DNA of 25,219 nt from IMG/VR virus record IMGVR_UViG_3300025487_000048, positions 1 through 25,219 of that record; one strand, given 5' to 3'. A model generated the notes under the pieces. That model had not been told where the DNA came from. It searched no databases and worked only from the letters and a program-made list of their open reading frames with translations. Within the stretch, counting starts at the first letter, position 1. Each line of letters starts with the position of its first letter. Positions 5,583-16,980 of the stretch are shown here, piece by piece. The DNA comes from a virus. A program made the translations under genes and the position numbers.

Positions 5583-6929
5583 ATGAAGCGTTCAATTACA
5601 ACTATTGCTTTCCTAGTCGGGACAGCTGCTGCAGCATATGCAACAGATCTTCCGTCAAAGAGAGCAGCTCCAGTTAATTATGTCAAAGTGTGTGATGCAT
5701 ATGGTGCAGGTTTCTTTACACTCCCAGGCACCGATACATGCATTCATGTTGGTGGGATGGTTCGTAGTGATACATTCTATGTTCCAGCTAAAGACGTTTA
5801 TAAGGTAACAAATGGTGCGCAAGCAATTGCTACACCAGCTGCTACAGAAAACACACTCGGTTACGAAGTTCGCGGTCGCATCGATATTGATGCTCGCACA
5901 CAAACCGAGGACGGCACTCTTCAGACTGTTATCTCATCCCGTTTGGGTCGTACAGGTGGCGCTCTTCAGTCATCTGCAGCTCCATCAGGAACTACTCAGT
6001 CTGCTACTACAACAACTCCAATCCTCGAAGCTGCTTATCTTCGTTGGAATGGCATCACAGCAGGTATTGCTCGTGACAACTTCCAGTTTATGCCAGTCGT
6101 AACATATACTGGCAACCAACACTGGGCAGCATTTTCTAATGGTGCACAACAGCTCGCCTATACCGCATTGCTTGGTGGCGGTCTGTCAGCTACTGTAGCT
6201 ATTCAAAATCCAAATGATACTGCTGCAGCTCCTGTTGGCGTTTCAGCTTTGTCAACTGTTTATAACACAAATCGTTCGCCTCAATTGAATGGTCGTGTTG
6301 ATTACGAACAGTCATGGGGTTCATTGGCTGTTATGGGTGCTGCTCGTCAGGTCAACGCAGTTGATCCAACAGGCAATGTTTATAACAAAGATGCTAATGT
6401 TTGGGCTGCTGGCGCTGGTGCTAAGATCAATCTGCCTATGCTTGCTCAAGGCGACTTCATCGCTTTCACTGGCGCTTATGCTAACGGCATGACAGAGTAT
6501 ACAACATCTTACGGCGATAACAAGCTTTCAGCTAACGTACAGCGTGATGTTAGCGGATATGTTATCAATCAGCCTTCTGTTGTTTATTTTGCTGATGGCA
6601 TTCAGACTGTTAAGTCTTGGTCAGTTGGTGCTGATCTGAAACACTACTGGGCTCCTCAATGGGCTTCAAACGTGTTCGCCTCATATGGTCAGATCACAGC
6701 TCCTGCTGAAGATGCTGCTGTTGTTTGGGATGGCAAGACTGGCTTCGGCAATGCAAAGCTTTGGTCAGTTGGTACTAACTTAACATACTCACCTGTTAAG
6801 GATTTCGACATCGGTGTCGAAGGTATCTACTCCAATATGTCTCAAGACGTTCGTTATACAACTACTGCAGTTAATAACGTCTCTGACAACAACTGGACTG
6901 CACGTCTCCGTTTGGAGCGTCGCTTCTAA
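5583..6929 (+). CDS. Alphaproteobacterial-type outer-membrane porin (Porin_2)
   Basis: The 448-residue product has a signal peptide (MKRS, hydrophobic core, AYA|T near residue 20), then the typical start of Brucella/Bradyrhizobium-type porins: DLPSKRAAPVNYVKVC, DAYGAGFFTLPGTDTC with two cysteines (C37, C53) and VGG. The rest is alternating beta-strand sequence, and it ends RLRLERRF with the terminal Phe recognised by the outer-membrane assembly machinery. Length and ends are those of an intact cellular porin, a trimeric 16-stranded channel family. The ATG follows AAGGA by six bases. The gene lies between tRNA-Arg and its own terminator. Codon use looks like its phage neighbours, so transfer is not recent. 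A role in superinfection exclusion, receptor replacement or altered permeability is inference; a precedent is the Lc porin of coliphage PA-2. Confidence 0.9.
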   Translation: MKRSITTIAFLVGTAAAAYATDLPSKRAAPVNYVKVCDAYGAGFFTLPGTDTCIHVGGMVRSDTFYVPAKDVYKVTNGAQAIATPAATENTLGYEVRGRIDIDARTQTEDGTLQTVISSRLGRTGGALQSSAAPSGTTQSATTTTPILEAAYLRWNGITAGIARDNFQFMPVVTYTGNQHWAAFSNGAQQLAYTALLGGGLSATVAIQNPNDTAAAPVGVSALSTVYNTNRSPQLNGRVDYEQSWGSLAVMGAARQVNAVDPTGNVYNKDANVWAAGAGAKINLPMLAQGDFIAFTGAYANGMTEYTTSYGDNKLSANVQRDVSGYVINQPSVVYFADGIQTVKSWSVGADLKHYWAPQWASNVFASYGQITAPAEDAAVVWDGKTGFGNAKLWSVGTNLTYSPVKDFDIGVEGIYSNMSQDVRYTTTAVNNVSDNNWTARLRLERRF

Positions 6930-10042: not shown

Positions 10043-11950
10043 TTATGCGGCAGTGTGAAGATAAGCTCCGAGTAATTGGTTTGATGGCGCACCAAGCATC
10101 GCCGTTTGTTTTGGAGCAGAATGACTAACTTGTTTGTCAGTTGATCCTTGCGGTGGTGTCGGAGCGTTTGGCACAGAAGGCGCTGTCATTGCTGATGTTG
10201 ACCTTCCAGTGCGATATTTAGGTGTAATCGTTGGTGGCGCAGGAGGCGCTGGTTTTGCTGGCGTTTGTTGAACAGGCGCAGCAGCAGGAGGCGGACTCAT
10301 TGGTTTAGCCTCTGGTTTTGTTTCTTGTCTAGCAGCTTGCGGAGCGCTTCTATTCGGAGCTGATGGTGCAGATAAATTAGTAACTGGCGTATTAGAAGCA
10401 ACACGTTGTTCTGGTCTTTCTCTATCTGGTTGACTTCCGCCACCACCAAGATTACCAGAAACTTCACCAGCCATAATACCAGTTCTAGTAATAGCGACGC
10501 TACCTTGTTCAGCTTTCGCAATAGAAAAATGCATTGGATCTTTAACAGAACGCCAATTCATACCCCAGCCCAAACCATGAGCAGCAGCAATTGCACCAGT
10601 TTGTGGAGGTAAATCTGTTTTAGTAGAACGATTAGGATTTGATGCTGGGTTAATATCAATCGCTGCGCCAAAAGCATGATAGCTTTTAACAGATGGATTG
10701 TTAACATTTGCTCTGTTAGCGTAGCCACCAAGACTGTTAATTTTATAACCAGTCGCTTCCATATCGTTGATAAAACCTTGGAAGTTAGCAGCGAATGCAG
10801 CATTAACTTTTGCTGTTTTACCAGTTGATGTTCTTACTTCAACTAAGTCAATACCAAGCTGTTGTGGGTTGTTTAATGATTGATCGTTTGGTGGAGGCGA
10901 TGATATGTTACCTACATCAAAACCAGATGATCCCATAGTTTGAGAAGCAACGCCATTAATCTGTATGTTATCTGCTCTGATAACCATATCTTTGGCAGTG
11001 AATTTAATATCGCTTGCTTTAAATTCAATGATTGGTGACGAAAGTAATTTCGTTCCATCTTTCTGCGTTTTAAATAATTCGCTAGTTGTTTTATCTTCTG
11101 TTTTAGATGAACCAAACAATGAGCCAGCATTCTGAAACAAACCAACAGCAGCTCCAAGCAAACCACCAATCGCACCACCAATTGCTGTTCCAACTCCAGG
11201 TACAATACTACCAATTGTAGCGCCAATACCAGCGCCAGTCATAGCACTTGAACCGATGTCAGCAACAGCACCAAGCTTTTCGTGACCCGATTCTTTTAGT
11301 TTGTCAGCAGCAAAGTCAAGAGCTAGTCCACCTAATAATCCACCAACACCCTTGAGTAAGCCACCGCCAACTTTCATTGCACCTTTGCCGACTGTTGATA
11401 ATACTCGGCTTACCTTTGATGCATTTTTTGCTTCGAGTTCAGCTGCTTTTAGAACGCCATTACCTTTAAACTTAACACCAGTTGCTGTTTCATGCGAAAC
11501 AATTTTATTTGTTTTGACGTCATGCCAGCGACCAGTCTTTTCATTAAACTTATATCCAGGCTTCCCTTTGACTTTTTTTCTAAATGGATTTTTAACATCA
11601 GGTAAATCAGTCAGACTATTCAGCAAACTACCGCCAGTAATACCACCTTGTTTTAGATTACCAATAACATAAACAAGATTCTGAAGTATTACGTTTTGTT
11701 GTTTCTGTAAATCAATTGACTGAGAAAGAAAATCATTTGTTTGTAATACGCTTTTATTGAAAGCTTCGTATGCTTCTTTTTCAGTTTCGGGTGGTTTGTT
11801 GTTAGCGAAATTATTATAAGCTGATCTTATTTTAGAAGCTCTAGAATATGTTGTTGGGAACATATTTTGCAATGCAGATTTACCGAGGTAAAGAGCTCCC
11901 TTACCAGCTAACTTTGCAGCACCTTTAACAACTGAGCCAATAGTTCCCAT
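10043..11950 (-). CDS. Large tail protein with M15-type peptidase domain
   Basis: A 635-residue protein. Residues 24-100 (KSALQNMFPTTY and a long helix with NVILQNLVYVIGNL) resemble the N-terminal module of the upstream 800-residue protein. Residues 190-275 are Gly/Ala-rich and hydrophobic, as in tape-measure or membrane-active tail proteins. Residues 308-333 (FKASDIKFTAKDMVIRADNIQI) are again shared with the paralogue. Residues 375-478 form an M15 peptidase domain: SYHAFGAAIDINP gives zinc ligands H425 and D432, and GLGWGMNWRSVKDPMHF gives D471 and H474. The rest is Pro/Ala/Gln-rich. It probably cuts peptide cross-links of peptidoglycan during DNA entry. The start overlaps the upstream stop by one base (TAATG). 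No export signal is present, consistent with packaging into the virion rather than lysis from within. Confidence 0.8.
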   Translation of the reverse strand: MGTIGSVVKGAAKLAGKGALYLGKSALQNMFPTTYSRASKIRSAYNNFANNKPPETEKEAYEAFNKSVLQTNDFLSQSIDLQKQQNVILQNLVYVIGNLKQGGITGGSLLNSLTDLPDVKNPFRKKVKGKPGYKFNEKTGRWHDVKTNKIVSHETATGVKFKGNGVLKAAELEAKNASKVSRVLSTVGKGAMKVGGGLLKGVGGLLGGLALDFAADKLKESGHEKLGAVADIGSSAMTGAGIGATIGSIVPGVGTAIGGAIGGLLGAAVGLFQNAGSLFGSSKTEDKTTSELFKTQKDGTKLLSSPIIEFKASDIKFTAKDMVIRADNIQINGVASQTMGSSGFDVGNISSPPPNDQSLNNPQQLGIDLVEVRTSTGKTAKVNAAFAANFQGFINDMEATGYKINSLGGYANRANVNNPSVKSYHAFGAAIDINPASNPNRSTKTDLPPQTGAIAAAHGLGWGMNWRSVKDPMHFSIAKAEQGSVAITRTGIMAGEVSGNLGGGGSQPDRERPEQRVASNTPVTNLSAPSAPNRSAPQAARQETKPEAKPMSPPPAAAPVQQTPAKPAPPAPPTITPKYRTGRSTSAMTAPSVPNAPTPPQGSTDKQVSHSAPKQTAMLGAPSNQLLGAYLHTAA

Positions 11951-14352
11951 TAGCGTCTCATTCTCCTACTTTGCATAATAGAATGCGATGCTTGATGTTG
12001 ACCAGTTACTGCAGCAAGAGCAAGATAAGGTAACAAGCTAGCTAAACGGAATACCATATCTCCACCTGGATCTGTTGGTGCTGGCGAAGAGCTTTCAACT
12101 CGGCGCGGATGTGGTTTTGCATTTGAATCTTTGTTCGCTTTTGGTGTTGGAGGATTAGGCGTTTTTCCAGTAACGTCAAAATAACCTTTTTCTTCAAATT
12201 GACCCCCAGAAGCTGGTGTAATTCCAGCAGCTGGTTTTGCTGGCGCTTTGTCAACCATTTGATTAGGGGATGATATAATGTCACCAGCTTTGGCAGGAAC
12301 AAACTTTGCTCCGCCAGTATCATTCTTTTCCCATCTACCTTGTTCGCCTTTGTATGTTTGTAAGTCAGTCGCTTTAACGAACTTAACACCACCCTGACCA
12401 TTTGGTTCCCATGAGCCGAACTCGCCTTTATATTGACTTAATCGGCTACCAGAAGCTGGAGCAGTAGGAGCTGGTGCATTTGTAGTCGCTGTTGGTTTTG
12501 ATTCTGGAGCTGCTTGCGGAGCTGTTTGTGGTTTTGCTTGCTGTTGACTTTCGTCAACTTTCAAAACACCAAGCATACCAAGACGATTGGCTGTATCTTG
12601 TTCTGGTCTAGCAGGAGCTTCAAAGTTTTTAACAACAGAATACATTCTTTGCGAATCACTAAGCTCTTCATTAGTTAGATCAGAATACGCTTTCTTATAA
12701 TATGTTTTCAATTCCCAAGCGAAAGCTTTTGCCTGTTCAGCAACAGTCATTTCGTTTGGCATTTTACCGAATTGTTTTGCTATTCTTGCTGCACGAGCAT
12801 CATCCCATGAAGCAATACCATGAGCTTTCTGATATGGATTACTACGAGATGGATCAGCATGAACATCGCCAGGTCTAGAAAGAGCTTCGCCCGATAAATT
12901 GGCAACAGCGATTCTAGCAGCTTTTTCTGATAAGCCTTCTGCTCTTAATGCCTGATACGCTTCTTGTTGATTGGCTGCTAATCCTTTTGATGGCACACGT
13001 TGACTTGTAGCCTGTATGTTTGTCATCGGTGCATTTTGCAGCTGCATTGTTTGCGGTTGACCGCGCTGCTGACCAATTTGTGGCAGAGGTCCAGTTCCAG
13101 GAGCGTTTTGTAATGTTGGATGATCACCACCATAATTGCCAGCACCACTGCCAGCGCCGCCACCAAACCCAGCTCCAGTAGCGCCTTGTCCTTGCGTCTG
13201 TTGCTGGTTCTGTTGTTTTGATTCAATTGTTAATGTTTGAACATCAAACGAAAGCTTATCAGAGTTGAATCTGATCTCATCAGCTTTAATCGTAAGGATA
13301 TCTTCAGCTTTTGTTTGCTTTGTTTTCGCAGCTGCAACAGCTGCTGTTTCTTTACTAGCTGCGATGCTACCACCAGCTGGTGCTAATGGTGCACCCTTTG
13401 TTCCTGTTGCTGGAACAGCAGTGGAAGCTGCCATAGCAGCTGCTGGAGCAACTGCAGCTGCAGTTGGTGTTGTTGTTTGAGCTGGTTTATTCTTTGGATC
13501 AGCTGTGTTCAGTTCTGGGTGCATAATGTATGCGCCCATCGCTGCATCTGGATCCATAGCACCAAGCATGTTAACGCCAGAAGCTTCAGATGAATTCATT
13601 GCTTCGGCTAATTGTTTTCCTTGCTCGCCTTGAGCTGACTTAGTAGCGCTGTATGATAATGCACCACCAATGGCAGCAATACCACCACCCAATGCTCCAA
13701 GAACAGCTGTTGATTCGCCAACAAGTGGAGCTGCTTTTAATGGATTGGCACTCTTTGGGCGTCTAAAGAAATCTAGTGGATTTCCACCAAATCCTGATCC
13801 GCTGTTTCTAGCAATTCTTGCAACCGATTCAGCAATTTGCGTAAGTAGTGTTGCCGAACGTTCTTGTATAGAAACAAGATCACGAATTAAATCGTTATTA
13901 TCTTTTAAATTGTCATTGATGGTTGTAAATTGAAGGCGACGTTCAGTTCTTTCGCGTTTCTTTTCAGCTTCTTCTTTTTCGGTTGTTTCTTTCCAGAACT
14001 TACGTAATGCCTCAACATTTTCGTAGGCAGTAGGAAATGCTTTTCTAAGAACAGCCTTACCTAGTTTCTTACCGATTGATTTACGTGGACCTGCAGCTTC
14101 GGCTATTTCCTCTTCTGCAGGTTCTGCTGCAAATGGAGGATTGATGTCAACTTTCTTTTTTGGAGGAGTTACGTTAACAGCTTCAGCTTTGACTTGTTGT
14201 GGGAATATTTTTTCAAGCTTTTTGTTCCAGCCGTCACCGACATACTGACCTGCAGAATCAGTAAATTTACCTTCAGGGTTTCTGAAGTATTCGACACCGC
14301 CGATTGCACCCGCAAATGGTTGGCCAACTTTATTCTTTTTTTGTTTAGCCAT
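11950..14352 (-). CDS. Large tail protein (tape-measure candidate) with lysozyme-like domain
   Basis: An 800-residue protein that follows the gp26-like chaperone genes, the usual place of the tape-measure gene in tailed phages. Residues 98-180 hold a GKAVLRKAFPTAY motif and coiled helices (EKEEAEKKRERTERR). Residues 208-235 are hydrophobic and Gly/Ala-rich. Residues 348-379 carry the DILTIKADEIRFNSDKLSFD element shared with the downstream paralogue. Residues 460-597 match phage tail lysozyme domains (Phage_lysozyme2-like): NLSGEAL with candidate catalytic E489, HGIASWDDARAARI, and WELKTYYKKAY. Two copies of a YKGExGxWE...GGxKFV repeat follow (640-663, 666-688), then a Pro-rich tail. The start overlaps the stop of the -1 frameshift frame (TAATG). 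It probably opens the cell wall during infection; the tape-measure role is inference from order and composition. Confidence 0.75.
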   Translation of the reverse strand: MAKQKKNKVGQPFAGAIGGVEYFRNPEGKFTDSAGQYVGDGWNKKLEKIFPQQVKAEAVNVTPPKKKVDINPPFAAEPAEEEIAEAAGPRKSIGKKLGKAVLRKAFPTAYENVEALRKFWKETTEKEEAEKKRERTERRLQFTTINDNLKDNNDLIRDLVSIQERSATLLTQIAESVARIARNSGSGFGGNPLDFFRRPKSANPLKAAPLVGESTAVLGALGGGIAAIGGALSYSATKSAQGEQGKQLAEAMNSSEASGVNMLGAMDPDAAMGAYIMHPELNTADPKNKPAQTTTPTAAAVAPAAAMAASTAVPATGTKGAPLAPAGGSIAASKETAAVAAAKTKQTKAEDILTIKADEIRFNSDKLSFDVQTLTIESKQQNQQQTQGQGATGAGFGGGAGSGAGNYGGDHPTLQNAPGTGPLPQIGQQRGQPQTMQLQNAPMTNIQATSQRVPSKGLAANQQEAYQALRAEGLSEKAARIAVANLSGEALSRPGDVHADPSRSNPYQKAHGIASWDDARAARIAKQFGKMPNEMTVAEQAKAFAWELKTYYKKAYSDLTNEELSDSQRMYSVVKNFEAPARPEQDTANRLGMLGVLKVDESQQQAKPQTAPQAAPESKPTATTNAPAPTAPASGSRLSQYKGEFGSWEPNGQGGVKFVKATDLQTYKGEQGRWEKNDTGGAKFVPAKAGDIISSPNQMVDKAPAKPAAGITPASGGQFEEKGYFDVTGKTPNPPTPKANKDSNAKPHPRRVESSSPAPTDPGGDMVFRLASLLPYLALAAVTGQHQASHSIMQSRRMRR

Positions 14353-14537
14353 TAATTAGCCTGTTGTTTTTGTCTTTCTTCTTGTTCTCGCAAATACCCC
14401 ACTAACATTTCAACATATATGTCACGTTCGAACACAATCCAGCTTTCTATTTCCGATATAGCATATTTATGGTGCTGAGCCAAAGAGAAATTCGTTTGAT
14501 AGTAATTCTCTAGGGTATTGTGACTCAGCGCAAGGTA
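14352..14537 (-). CDS. -1 frame extension of the gp26-like chaperone
   Basis: This frame has no plausible start codon of its own; its only ATG is near the end. It continues exactly from the gp26-like frame after a -1 slip at the T7 run 14543-14537: ...SDFF then YLALSHNTLENYYQTN, ISEIESW, FERDIYVEMLVGYL, ending QQAN at TAA 14354-14352. That adds 61 residues, for a fusion of about 295. The helical ending with charged residues suits the extended form of a tail-assembly chaperone (the lambda G-GT principle), which recruits the tape measure and tube subunits. The stop overlaps the ATG of the following 800-residue gene (TAATG), as at other gene joints in this operon, which independently argues that this frame is translated. 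Confidence 0.75.
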   Translation of the reverse strand, partial: YLALSHNTLENYYQTNFSLAQHHKYAISEIESWIVFERDIYVEMLVGYLREQEERQKQQAN

Positions 14538-14543
14538 AAAAAA
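14474..14543 (-). promoter_or_regulatory. Programmed -1 frameshift signal
   Basis: On the minus strand, the codons GAT TTT TTT ACC hold the slippery heptamer T TTT TTT (14543-14537). After a 7-base spacer, GCTGAGTCA (14529-14521) can pair with TGGCTCAGC (14482-14474) over 9 bp (one G-U), with a 38-base loop that holds a 6-bp inner stem (14511-14506/14489-14484). The zero-frame stop TGA (14527-14525) lies in the stem. Site, spacing and stem are all those of a standard -1 frameshift element. Confidence 0.75.
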
Positions 14544-15238
14544 TCGGATAGCGTTTTCAGCTCAATAGCTCTTTCATTACCATTTGAATTGGTATATTCA
14601 AGCTTATAATAAAGCGAGGGAAGATTGAGCATAAACTCTCTGATCTTCTCAAAGCTTGGAATATCGACGAGCTCAAGGAATTCAAGGATAGCATCTTCAT
14701 CAAAGTCCTTGCCTTCATATACGTTTTCAGCATCATAGATCTGATCAATACAACGAACAACAAGGCGATAAAATGTTTCTTCGCCTTCAGCTTTAAGGAA
14801 TGTCTTATCGGAATAGATCTCAGATGATGGATATTTCATAATGATGCCAGAGGTATCGGTGATCTTAATTGTTTTGTCAATGTTCTCTGGGAACTTTACA
14901 TCGACATTTCCAAGATCAACTTCAAAGTCATAGCTCTTATTGTCTTCGAGATCACGATATGATACATTGATCTTATCGCCGATTGAAAAGCCACGCAACT
15001 TAACAAACAAATACTCGAGCGCGTATAGCGGGAGTTTATCGATATCCAGCGTAGGATCTAAGCTGCAGTTTGTAACAACTTGTTTAATAGCCTGAAGAAT
15101 ATCAGAATCATCTTCAGAAACCTTCGCCATCAACAAAAGCTTTTCTTCCTTAACCAACATCGGACGAAAGATATATTGTTTCTTTTCGGGTGGGATTGTA
15201 ATGTTGATTGTAGGGTAATCAATTTTAGGTAGTGCCAT
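14525..15238 (-). CDS. gp26: Baseplate hub/tail chaperone, T4 gp26-like
   Basis: A 237-residue protein of the T4 gp26 family (T4_baseplate, PF12322): a strand-rich start (MALPKIDYPTINITIPPEKKQYIFRPMLVKEEKLLLMA), then ILQAIKQVVTNC, LDIDKLPLYALEYLFVKLRGFSIGD, and a later GIIMKYPS segment, all typical. In T4, gp26 is needed for hub assembly and is not a major part of the finished baseplate; the position before the tape-measure gene fits a chaperone. The zero frame ends LSDFFTLR at TGA 14527-14525, six codons after a slippery T7 run begins, so a longer -1 product is likely. GGAGT lies about 10 bases before the ATG, after a 15-base gap from the gp19-like gene. Confidence 0.85.
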   Translation of the reverse strand: MALPKIDYPTINITIPPEKKQYIFRPMLVKEEKLLLMAKVSEDDSDILQAIKQVVTNCSLDPTLDIDKLPLYALEYLFVKLRGFSIGDKINVSYRDLEDNKSYDFEVDLGNVDVKFPENIDKTIKITDTSGIIMKYPSSEIYSDKTFLKAEGEETFYRLVVRCIDQIYDAENVYEGKDFDEDAILEFLELVDIPSFEKIREFMLNLPSLYYKLEYTNSNGNERAIELKTLSDFFTLR

Positions 15239-15253
15239 AATTTACTCCAGTTA

Positions 15254-15907
15254 TTATCCAAGGGATGCGTTGTTTTGTCCGTCTCCAAGCACCCATTCTC
15301 TAAAGGTGATTGTTGTTGTCAATTTAATTAGGTTATTGTTATCAGTCCAGCTCAATGCTGTATCGTTGATTGAAATAGGATATGCTTTTAAAAGTGTAGC
15401 CTGAATGTTTGGATTTCCTTCATTATCATAAACAGTTATTGTAATCGTAGCCGAGTAGTTGTCTTTATATTCGGCAGTGTAAAACGATCTTTTGTTACCA
15501 CTGTTATTGATTGTTCCGTAAATATTGGAAGAGCTTTCCTCACCAGAAATACCGAAGATATAATTGAACCAAGTATACCAGAAGTTATATTGCAAACCAT
15601 ATCTGTCAACAAGGAATGTTAATGATACGTCTGTATAGTTGGCTGAGTAAGGCATTTTTTCCGAAACACCAACACCAAAACGATTGATGTCAGCTGTTCG
15701 CATTGTAAGTCCAGGTAACGAAGCATTGATACAACGATATTGCGTATCCTGTGTGCTTTCGTTTGTACCGACTGTTGAGCCATCTGCTCCCTGAATGCTG
15801 AGCTGACCGAAGTCGCCATCAAACGTAATTTGAACATCGTACTTGTTTGTTTGAAGCACGCCTGTATCGGCGATGTAGGATTGAAAGTCTAATATATTAA
15901 ATGCCAT
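15254..15907 (-). CDS. gp19-like tail tube or tube-initiator protein
   Basis: A 217-residue protein with the T4 gp19-like tail tube pattern: N-terminal NKYDVQITFDG, CINASLPGLTM followed by the long arm (SEKMPYSANYTDVSLTFLVDR), then YKDNYSATITITVYDNEG, LLKAYPISINDTALSW and the final strand KLTTTITFREW. T4 gp19 is 163 residues, so this version is longer. T4 has a gp19-type domain in the main tube protein and in gp48 and gp54, which start the tube on the baseplate. As a gp48-like gene lies just across the divergent region (16992), this one could be the gp54 counterpart; the major tube gene normally sits with gp18 and gp20. It starts one base after the preceding stop. Confidence 0.65.
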   Translation of the reverse strand: MAFNILDFQSYIADTGVLQTNKYDVQITFDGDFGQLSIQGADGSTVGTNESTQDTQYRCINASLPGLTMRTADINRFGVGVSEKMPYSANYTDVSLTFLVDRYGLQYNFWYTWFNYIFGISGEESSSNIYGTINNSGNKRSFYTAEYKDNYSATITITVYDNEGNPNIQATLLKAYPISINDTALSWTDNNNLIKLTTTITFREWVLGDGQNNASLG

Positions 15908-15908
15908 C

Positions 15909-16502
15909 TTACACCATTGATAGAGAGTCTTTAAAGACTTTTTGTTTGCTTGCGCCTTGGAAGTTTTCAGTCGGTAACATCAAAGCAAAGTCCCATTCGT
16001 CTGGCGAAATATAAATGAAAGGCGATCCAACCTGACTGAACAAATACTTCTTTACGCATGGTTTAAACCATTTAAAACGACCAGCACCTTTCAATATATG
16101 ATATGACATTTTTAACAATGTCGTTTGATCATACTTTTGATTATTTATCAGCGTATAGAGAGCGTCCATCAGCAGAGCTCTTGTCTTTGGTGGTAGATAA
16201 TGTAAGTTGATACCAAGGAAGCTGTCACCATAAAACTCTATAGGAAATATGAGAGGAAACGCATCGAAATAAGGCAAGTTCTTCGTTTTGGCATCATAAA
16301 CGAACATATACATTTTGCCGATGCTCTTTTCAGTAAGCATCTGTTGGCGTTTGAACGGCATATTCTGCCCGAGTATTTGCTGGCGATCGACTTTCTTAAC
16401 CGATAAAGCTTGTTTGCGAAACCAGTCAATGGCTTCTTTTGTACCTGTTTTAAGGTCATTTGCCGAAGCTTGCGCTAGCGTATCTGCGAAAAGTGATGCC
16501 AT
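15909..16502 (-). CDS. Conserved T4-like virion assembly protein, unknown role
   Basis: A 197-residue basic protein. Its central part (IGKMYMFVYDAKTKNLPYFDAFPLIFPI, then INLHYLPPKTRALLMDALY) is of a kind I know from T4-like phages of marine and alphaproteobacterial hosts next to gp4, but I cannot tie it to a T4 gene with certainty. The C-terminal part includes WFKPCVKKYLFSQVGSPFIYISPDEW. It is not gp53, which is found on the other strand at 17935. Association with gp4 suggests head completion or neck/baseplate assembly. It starts in a TAATG overlap with the gp4 stop. A TATAAATA match on this strand at 16727-16720 lies upstream inside gp4 and might give extra late transcription. Confidence 0.65.
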   Translation of the reverse strand: MASLFADTLAQASANDLKTGTKEAIDWFRKQALSVKKVDRQQILGQNMPFKRQQMLTEKSIGKMYMFVYDAKTKNLPYFDAFPLIFPIEFYGDSFLGINLHYLPPKTRALLMDALYTLINNQKYDQTTLLKMSYHILKGAGRFKWFKPCVKKYLFSQVGSPFIYISPDEWDFALMLPTENFQGASKQKVFKDSLSMV

Positions 16503-16948
16503 TAAAATTTCAACCCTAACTCTTTTTCAGTAAATATCTGAAACTTCCAGCCTCGATCTTTACAGTATTCAGTAGCAGCTTTCCACTTTGCCTCATTAAC
16601 ACCCCAAGTCATAACTTCCTGAATATAGCGTTTATTCTTTTTGCCTTCAGTAAGCACTGGCGGGCGAGTTTGCGAAGCTGGTTTTACTTCGATCAGTGTG
16701 GTTTCTTTAATCCCTTGTTTATTTATAGTGGTTACGATAAAGTCAACAAAGTACCTGTGGACTCTGCCATCTATTGGAGAACGATAAGGTATGACAACTT
16801 CTTCCGACCCCCAGCTTATAACATCTGGATGTTCGTCTAATTTGCTCATCAACAAGGATTCCCATCGAGAGCGATAAATAATATTCGAGGGATTGCCCTT
16901 GTATTTGGCGGGATTTCTTGGTTTGAAATATCCTTTATAAGTATTCAT
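16502..16948 (-). CDS. gp4: Head completion nuclease-like protein, T4 gp4 (gp50/65)
   Basis: A 148-residue protein, the same size as T4 gp4. The start (NTYKGYFKPRNPAKYKGNP) and the core (IIYRSRWESLLMSKLDEHPDVISWGSEEVVIPYRSPIDGR, then HRYFVDFIV and IEVKPASQT) match closely. The fold is of the TnsA/Holliday-junction type with D in YFVDF, and E and K in IEVKP as the nuclease triad. In T4 it is required to finish heads so that tails can join. I use ATG 16948; a TTG nine bases upstream is possible but unneeded. It is the first gene of the leftward operon and faces gp48 across a 43-base divergent region that holds late-promoter-like boxes. Confidence 0.92.
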   Translation of the reverse strand: MNTYKGYFKPRNPAKYKGNPSNIIYRSRWESLLMSKLDEHPDVISWGSEEVVIPYRSPIDGRVHRYFVDFIVTTINKQGIKETTLIEVKPASQTRPPVLTEGKKNKRYIQEVMTWGVNEAKWKAATEYCKDRGWKFQIFTEKELGLKF

Positions 16949-16980
16949 GACACCCAATAAATAGTAAAAAGATATTTAGT
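16936..16980. promoter_or_regulatory. Divergent late promoter region between gp4 and gp48
   Basis: Rightward, AATAAATA (16956-16963) differs from TATAAATA by one base and would start near 16970, just before the gp48 Shine-Dalgarno (AAGGA 16981-16985); TATAAGTA (16936-16943), inside the gp4 start, is a second candidate. Leftward, ACTAAATA (16980-16973) has two differences and would start near 16966. The same 8-mer occurs before gp32 (8523-8530). No sigma70-like -35 box is visible. Confidence 0.5.

Follow-up and report, generated by a model that had tools for sequence, protein, structure and literature searches.

We analysed a stretch of 25,219 nucleotides (positions 1 to 25,219 of IMG/VR record IMGVR_UViG_3300025487_000048, called here the window) from an uncultured T4-like virus of bacteria, and in particular the end of a gp26-like gene at which a programmed -1 ribosomal frameshift had been proposed. 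Profile matches and gene order place a T4-type tail operon on the minus strand of the window, to which all the positions given for this operon refer. The gp26-like gene (14525..15238) encodes a 237-amino-acid protein, the putative short chaperone form (G or TAC-N), whose label is borne out by matches to PF12322 (E 2.7e-48, 165 bits against a curated cut-off of 24.5, residues 9-234 on profile positions 2-218/219) and phrog_150 (E 6.3e-53). It ends with the codons GAT TTT TTT ACC TTG CGC TGA, the 0-frame stop lying at 14527..14525, and thus carries in register a T TTT TTT slip site (14537..14543), followed by the 7-nucleotide spacer ACCTTGC (14530..14536) and by a stem-loop that contains the stop codon (14474..14529). 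This stem-loop combines a 9-bp outer stem, with arms GCTGAGTCA (14529..14521) and TGGCTCAGC (14482..14474), and a nested 6-bp hairpin; its minimum free energy is -16.9 kcal/mol (z -3.5), and none of 200 shuffled sequences folds as well. The -1 frame (14352..14543) consists of the two phenylalanines FF and 61 further codons and terminates at a TAA (14354..14352) that overlaps the ATG of the next gene (14352..14350) as TAATG. The slip run and its register, the spacer, the stem with its nested hairpin, the start-less frame and the TAATG joint are therefore all present as the initial annotation had described them.

The -1 frame encodes a recognisable C-terminal domain ('T', TAC-C or 'gp51'), since its 63 residues match columns 56-116 of the 121 columns of phrog_634, 'baseplate hub assembly catalyst' of the gp51 family, with an E value of 4.2e-25. 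Across relatives, the ratio of nonsynonymous to synonymous substitution rates (dN/dS) is 0.09 in this frame, whereas the two alternative frames give about 1.0 and 2.4; codon positions 1, 2 and 3 show column entropies of 0.69, 0.36 and 1.32, respectively. Judged by these sequence comparisons, the -1 frame is a protein-coding domain under purifying selection. Among the 26 window genes checked, the gp26-like gene is the only one with an in-register T6 or A6 inside an overlap with an open -1 frame.

Relatives were gathered by single-protein queries with gp26 (17 viral contigs), the C-terminal domain (80) and a cyanophage gp26 (13), in addition to 16 named phages other than T4 that were read first; loci were found through the C-terminal domain or gp26 and never through the slip site. 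The motif NNT TTT TTN is present in register shortly before the gp26 stop in 123 of the 124 loci that hold the C-terminal domain, the exception being Vibrio phage D493, and across the slip-site loci the stop codon is complete 3-12 nucleotides after the last base of the heptamer. Both required synonymous positions are T in all 66 non-redundant loci, for which the codon usage of each gp26 gene gives a chance of about 10^-31.5, and the 12 loci above 45% GC (up to 55% GC) give by themselves about 10^-14; these figures overstate independence because the loci are related and the test treats them as independent. By contrast, the third base of the second slip codon, which is free in tandem slippage, varies among the 66 loci (51 T, 13 C and 2 G). 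No relative was found in genome contigs, and there is therefore no sign of a prophage form. In a tree of the gp26 domain, the window belongs to a new uncultured clade near Sinorhizobium phage phiM12.

Since RNAalifold found no consensus fold, conservation of the stem was assessed by counting the pairs of the named structure, with slid-arm controls, in the 45 non-redundant members of the T7 class. The nine outer-stem pairs are standard in 91.9% of the cells and are all kept in 29 of the 45 relatives. The full two-helix structure is paired in 87.9% of the cells, and sliding one arm lowers this to 38-45%. Both sides of a pair have changed in 26 cells, as opposed to 8.9 in shuffled controls; changes of this kind are seen at three pairs of the outer stem. 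Folds in other lineages differ or are weak. Given this and the lack of an RNAalifold consensus, the stem is, as far as these alignments go, well supported in the clade of the window but not universal. In two relatives that are 75% identical in gp26 (L007 and L008), the slip site is kept, the 9-bp stem is broken and the -1 stop is not joined to the next start.

Taken together, these results make it highly probable, on comparative grounds, that programmed -1 ribosomal frameshifting lets this locus produce two forms of a T4-type tail assembly chaperone. The lambda G/GT-like frameshift that the initial annotation had put forward is strongly supported by the relatives, through the slip site, the selection on the frame and the paired changes in the stem. 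According to the mechanism that we propose, most ribosomes would stop reading gp26 at 14525 and yield the 237-amino-acid short form (G-like), whereas a minority, paused by the stem-loop, would shift one base backwards on T TTT TTT, with both phenylalanine anticodons re-pairing with UUU/UUU. The slipped ribosomes would then read the -1 frame to 14352 and produce a fusion of about 295 amino acids (GT-like) ending in the 61-residue C-terminal domain. Lambda suggests by analogy that the N-terminal part might coat the tape measure and the rare C-terminal domain might recruit tail-tube subunits. The slip site, the reading frame, the domain homology, the purifying selection and the stem covariation are observed here; slippage, its efficiency and the chaperone roles are inferred.

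Besides the relatedness of the loci in the codon test, several observations weigh against this interpretation. RNAalifold returned no consensus structure for the 45-sequence alignment, and no stable downstream fold was found in the loci L007, L064, L107 and L110 or in the phages HTVC008M and CC2; for these reasons the stem may be helpful rather than essential. In frameshifted chaperone genes of the G/GT type, a stimulatory structure downstream is common without being obligatory. Five phages have an ATG at the gp26 stop (TGATG or TAATG) that would permit re-initiation there, and Vibrio phages D493 and Kuja and phage Maynard have the domain in the -1 frame but no T6 site. At the slip position, Salmonella phage Maynard (L132) has ATT TTC, Vibrio phage Kuja (L133) CTT TTT and Vibrio phage D493 (L030) CTT TTC, each with an apparent C-terminal domain after gp26; Maynard and Kuja are Ackermannviridae, and D493 has TAATG at its gp26 stop. 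These three phages may use another slip site or re-initiation. A more elaborate scheme, which we advance only tentatively and consider somewhat doubtful, is that a covarying stem-loop specific to this lineage tunes the G:GT ratio in the alphaproteobacterial T4-like clade, and that Maynard, Kuja and D493 replaced the T6 site by a non-canonical slip or by re-initiation yielding the same fusion or a separate domain.

The ATGs at the gp26 stop in five phages, together with the database annotation in many phages of a gp51 of its own, 45-60 amino acids long, would fit an independent 'gp51' gene in the small frame, on which ribosomes re-initiate at the gp26 stop or close to it. We consider this very improbable. 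A separate gene would need no NNT TTT, and the -1 frame of the window opens without a nearby ATG or GTG, the earliest possible start being a TTG 20 codons in. Relatives with a proper start in the small frame, which the initial annotation had regarded as evidence against frameshifting, do exist, as an ATG lies within the first 12 codons in 23 of 123 loci; however, the slip site is kept there too, and no start codon (ATG, GTG or TTG) is found in these 12 codons in 83 of the 123. Moreover, conservation of the -1 frame passes the annotated starts and extends up to the slip site in cyanophages, a pelagiphage and phages of Sinorhizobium, Rhizobium, Pseudomonas, Delftia, Stenotrophomonas, Aeromonas, Cronobacter and Vibrio.

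Programmed ribosomal frameshifting is also to be preferred to slippage of RNA polymerase on the T run, which would generate mRNAs with one base more or less and hence the fusion without any slip of the ribosome. The T7 of the window clade would suit such a process, but in many lineages the run is only T6 and the next base a C or G (29 TTC and 2 TTG of 123) while T TTT TTY is kept in codon register, a constraint of frame and register on two codons that is specific to tandem tRNA slippage, and a covarying stem at a spacing of 7 nucleotides suits ribosomal slippage; we therefore give polymerase slippage an even smaller chance. Finally, that the -1 frame is noncoding or decayed, and that the slip run and the open frame coincide by accident, is refuted by the comparative data and has virtually no probability: T7 runs are by themselves no rarer than chance in the window (8 found, 17.8 expected), but neither the phrog_634 match nor the low dN/dS nor the conservation in 123 of 124 loci fits an accident.

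In T4 itself, gp26 and gp51 both belong to PF12322 (E 9e-64 and 4e-52). A profile of the T domain finds the same C-terminal domain in frame in T4 gp51 (residues 200-247, 25 bits) and in the gp51 of phage 44RR (33 bits); T4 gp26 ends just beyond the slip-site position, whereas gp51 runs on in frame into the C-terminal domain. T4 gene 26 ends with GAG TTC TTT GAG TTA CTA TAA, without a slip site, and its -1 frame closes almost at once. Two PF12322 genes are present in T4 (gp26 and gp51), compared to one in D493 and in each of the 15 slip-site genomes tested. From the paralogy of gp26 and gp51, these gene counts and the missing slip site in gene 26, it appears very probable that T4 makes the short and long forms from two separate genes and other T4-like groups make them from one gene by frameshifting. 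The abstract of the 2022 study by Vladimirov, Gautam and Davidson reportedly describes the frameshift as conserved across several T4-like groups, with T4 using genes 26 and 51. The gp26-domain tree groups the gp26 and gp51 of the T4 group (90/91); because its branches are long and its root is a midpoint root, a change from frameshift to split genes is only suggested by it. Klebsiella phage CP-p-KP-21068 (L135, 1501-2792) has two tandem PF12322-type genes on one strand, of which the first includes the C-terminal domain and the second lacks it; this pair is possibly an intermediate between a frameshift gene and the divergent gp26/gp51 pair of T4. T4 gp26 and gp51 have been listed as hub assembly chaperones, gp51 being essential and of unknown function (PMC3004832).

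The entries for a short 'gp51' gene in the genomes of many cyanophages and other T4-like phages thus very probably represent not a gene but the C-terminal half of a frameshift product. The gp51 of cyanophages has been reported to have only about 20% of the normal length, and gp51 to be absent in Aeh1 (Sullivan et al. 2010, PMC3037559). The frameshift explains both the short cyanophage gp51 and the 'missing' gp51 of Aeh1, where the domain lies in the -1 frame behind T TTT TTC. The C-terminal domain is intact yet unannotated in Aeh1, the Aeromonas phages CC2 and Aswh_1 and Cronobacter phage S13. With the paralogy of T4 gp26 and gp51, the frameshift supports a reading of these proteins as tail-length chaperones.

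In G/GT-type loci, the chaperone gene is placed between those for the tail tube and the tape measure. Directly upstream of the gp26-like gene lies a tail tube-like gene of the gp19/gp54 type (15254..15907, 217 amino acids; phrog_45 E 5e-29, PF23849 and PF06841), preceded by genes for the DNA end protector gp2 (16502..15909) and the head closure protein gp4 (16957..16502). The downstream gene (11950..14352) encodes an 800-amino-acid protein with a Phage_lysozyme2 domain (PF18013, E 3.5e-9). The initial annotation had placed the tape measure here, which the gene order, the lysozyme domain and a single PHROG tape-measure match (phrog_9570, E 1e-11) make probable; this is the weakest point of the locus, as that match mostly covers the lysozyme domain. 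The next gene (11950..10043) encodes a 635-amino-acid protein with a D-Ala-D-Ala carboxypeptidase domain. The N-terminal regions of the 800- and 635-amino-acid proteins are alike (pairwise BLASTP, E 4e-6) and their cell-wall enzyme domains differ, lysozyme-like in the former and an M15 peptidase in the latter, so that the two look like duplicated tail proteins.

Elsewhere in the window, a gene on the plus strand (5583..6929) encodes a 448-amino-acid porin of the alphaproteobacterial type (PF02530, E 2e-44). No match to it was found among 50,697 phage records, and it is present on three viral contigs at 72-100% identity, one of which is nearly the same phage. A host-type outer-membrane porin is unusual on a phage, and this one may change the surface or permeability of the host.

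The comparison with known systems begins with the T4-like phages themselves. The gp26-like gene of the window shares its family with T4 gp26 and gp51 and its C-terminal domain with gp51; it differs from this pair in that T4 has two separate and divergent genes. The initial annotation had considered frameshifting not to be an established feature of T4-type gp26, a claim of novelty that does not hold. A passage of the PRFect paper cites Vladimirov, Gautam and Davidson (2022, Virology 566:9-15) for T4-like phages with one short and one fused longer chaperone gene (PMC10885494), and a passage of the paper on phage Adele cites the same work for poly-T -1 slippery sequences in TAC-N genes of T4-like phages (PMC12846349). 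As far as these citing passages convey it, the TAC-N/TAC-NC system of those phages has in common with the window locus the two-product logic and a poly-T slip site in the TAC-N gene. The gene family reportedly agrees as well. The window locus is thus, judging from its sequence, very probably a well-supported new case of a known chaperone frameshift, and most of its significance follows the 2022 identification; new here are the quantified codon-level constraint on the slip site, the covariation of the stem, the new uncultured clade and the relatives without a T6 site.

A similar arrangement is found in phage P2, another contractile-tail phage with a frameshifted chaperone gene, where E/E+E' slips on T TTT TTG and the protein family is different from gp26. 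In phage lambda, the slip site of gene G is G GGA AAG, as opposed to the T TTT TTT of the window gene. The AlphaFold2 model of the short form is confident (predicted local distance difference test score, pLDDT, 90), and its Foldseek/BFVD matches are mainly gp26/gp51-type proteins (gp26 or hub proteins of other phages), baseplate proteins and uncharacterised proteins; a fold search of the PDB with this model gave no match at E <= 0.001. Because the modelled short form has no match among solved structures, no homology to lambda G is claimed and the resemblance is a functional one. The Vandenendeviridae/Andersonviridae TAC locus described for phage Adele (PMC12846349) likewise has a misannotated downstream reading frame, in a different phage family and with a different slip motif. 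In lambda, the gene that precedes the tape measure undergoes its -1 frameshift close to its end, and the short chaperone is abundant and the long one rare (PMC5009743). A frameshift near the gene end and a short/long chaperone pair are what the window locus would share with G/GT, and the evidence from the frame, its selection, the slip site and the stem leads us to propose that gp26 and its extension work like the lambda chaperones.
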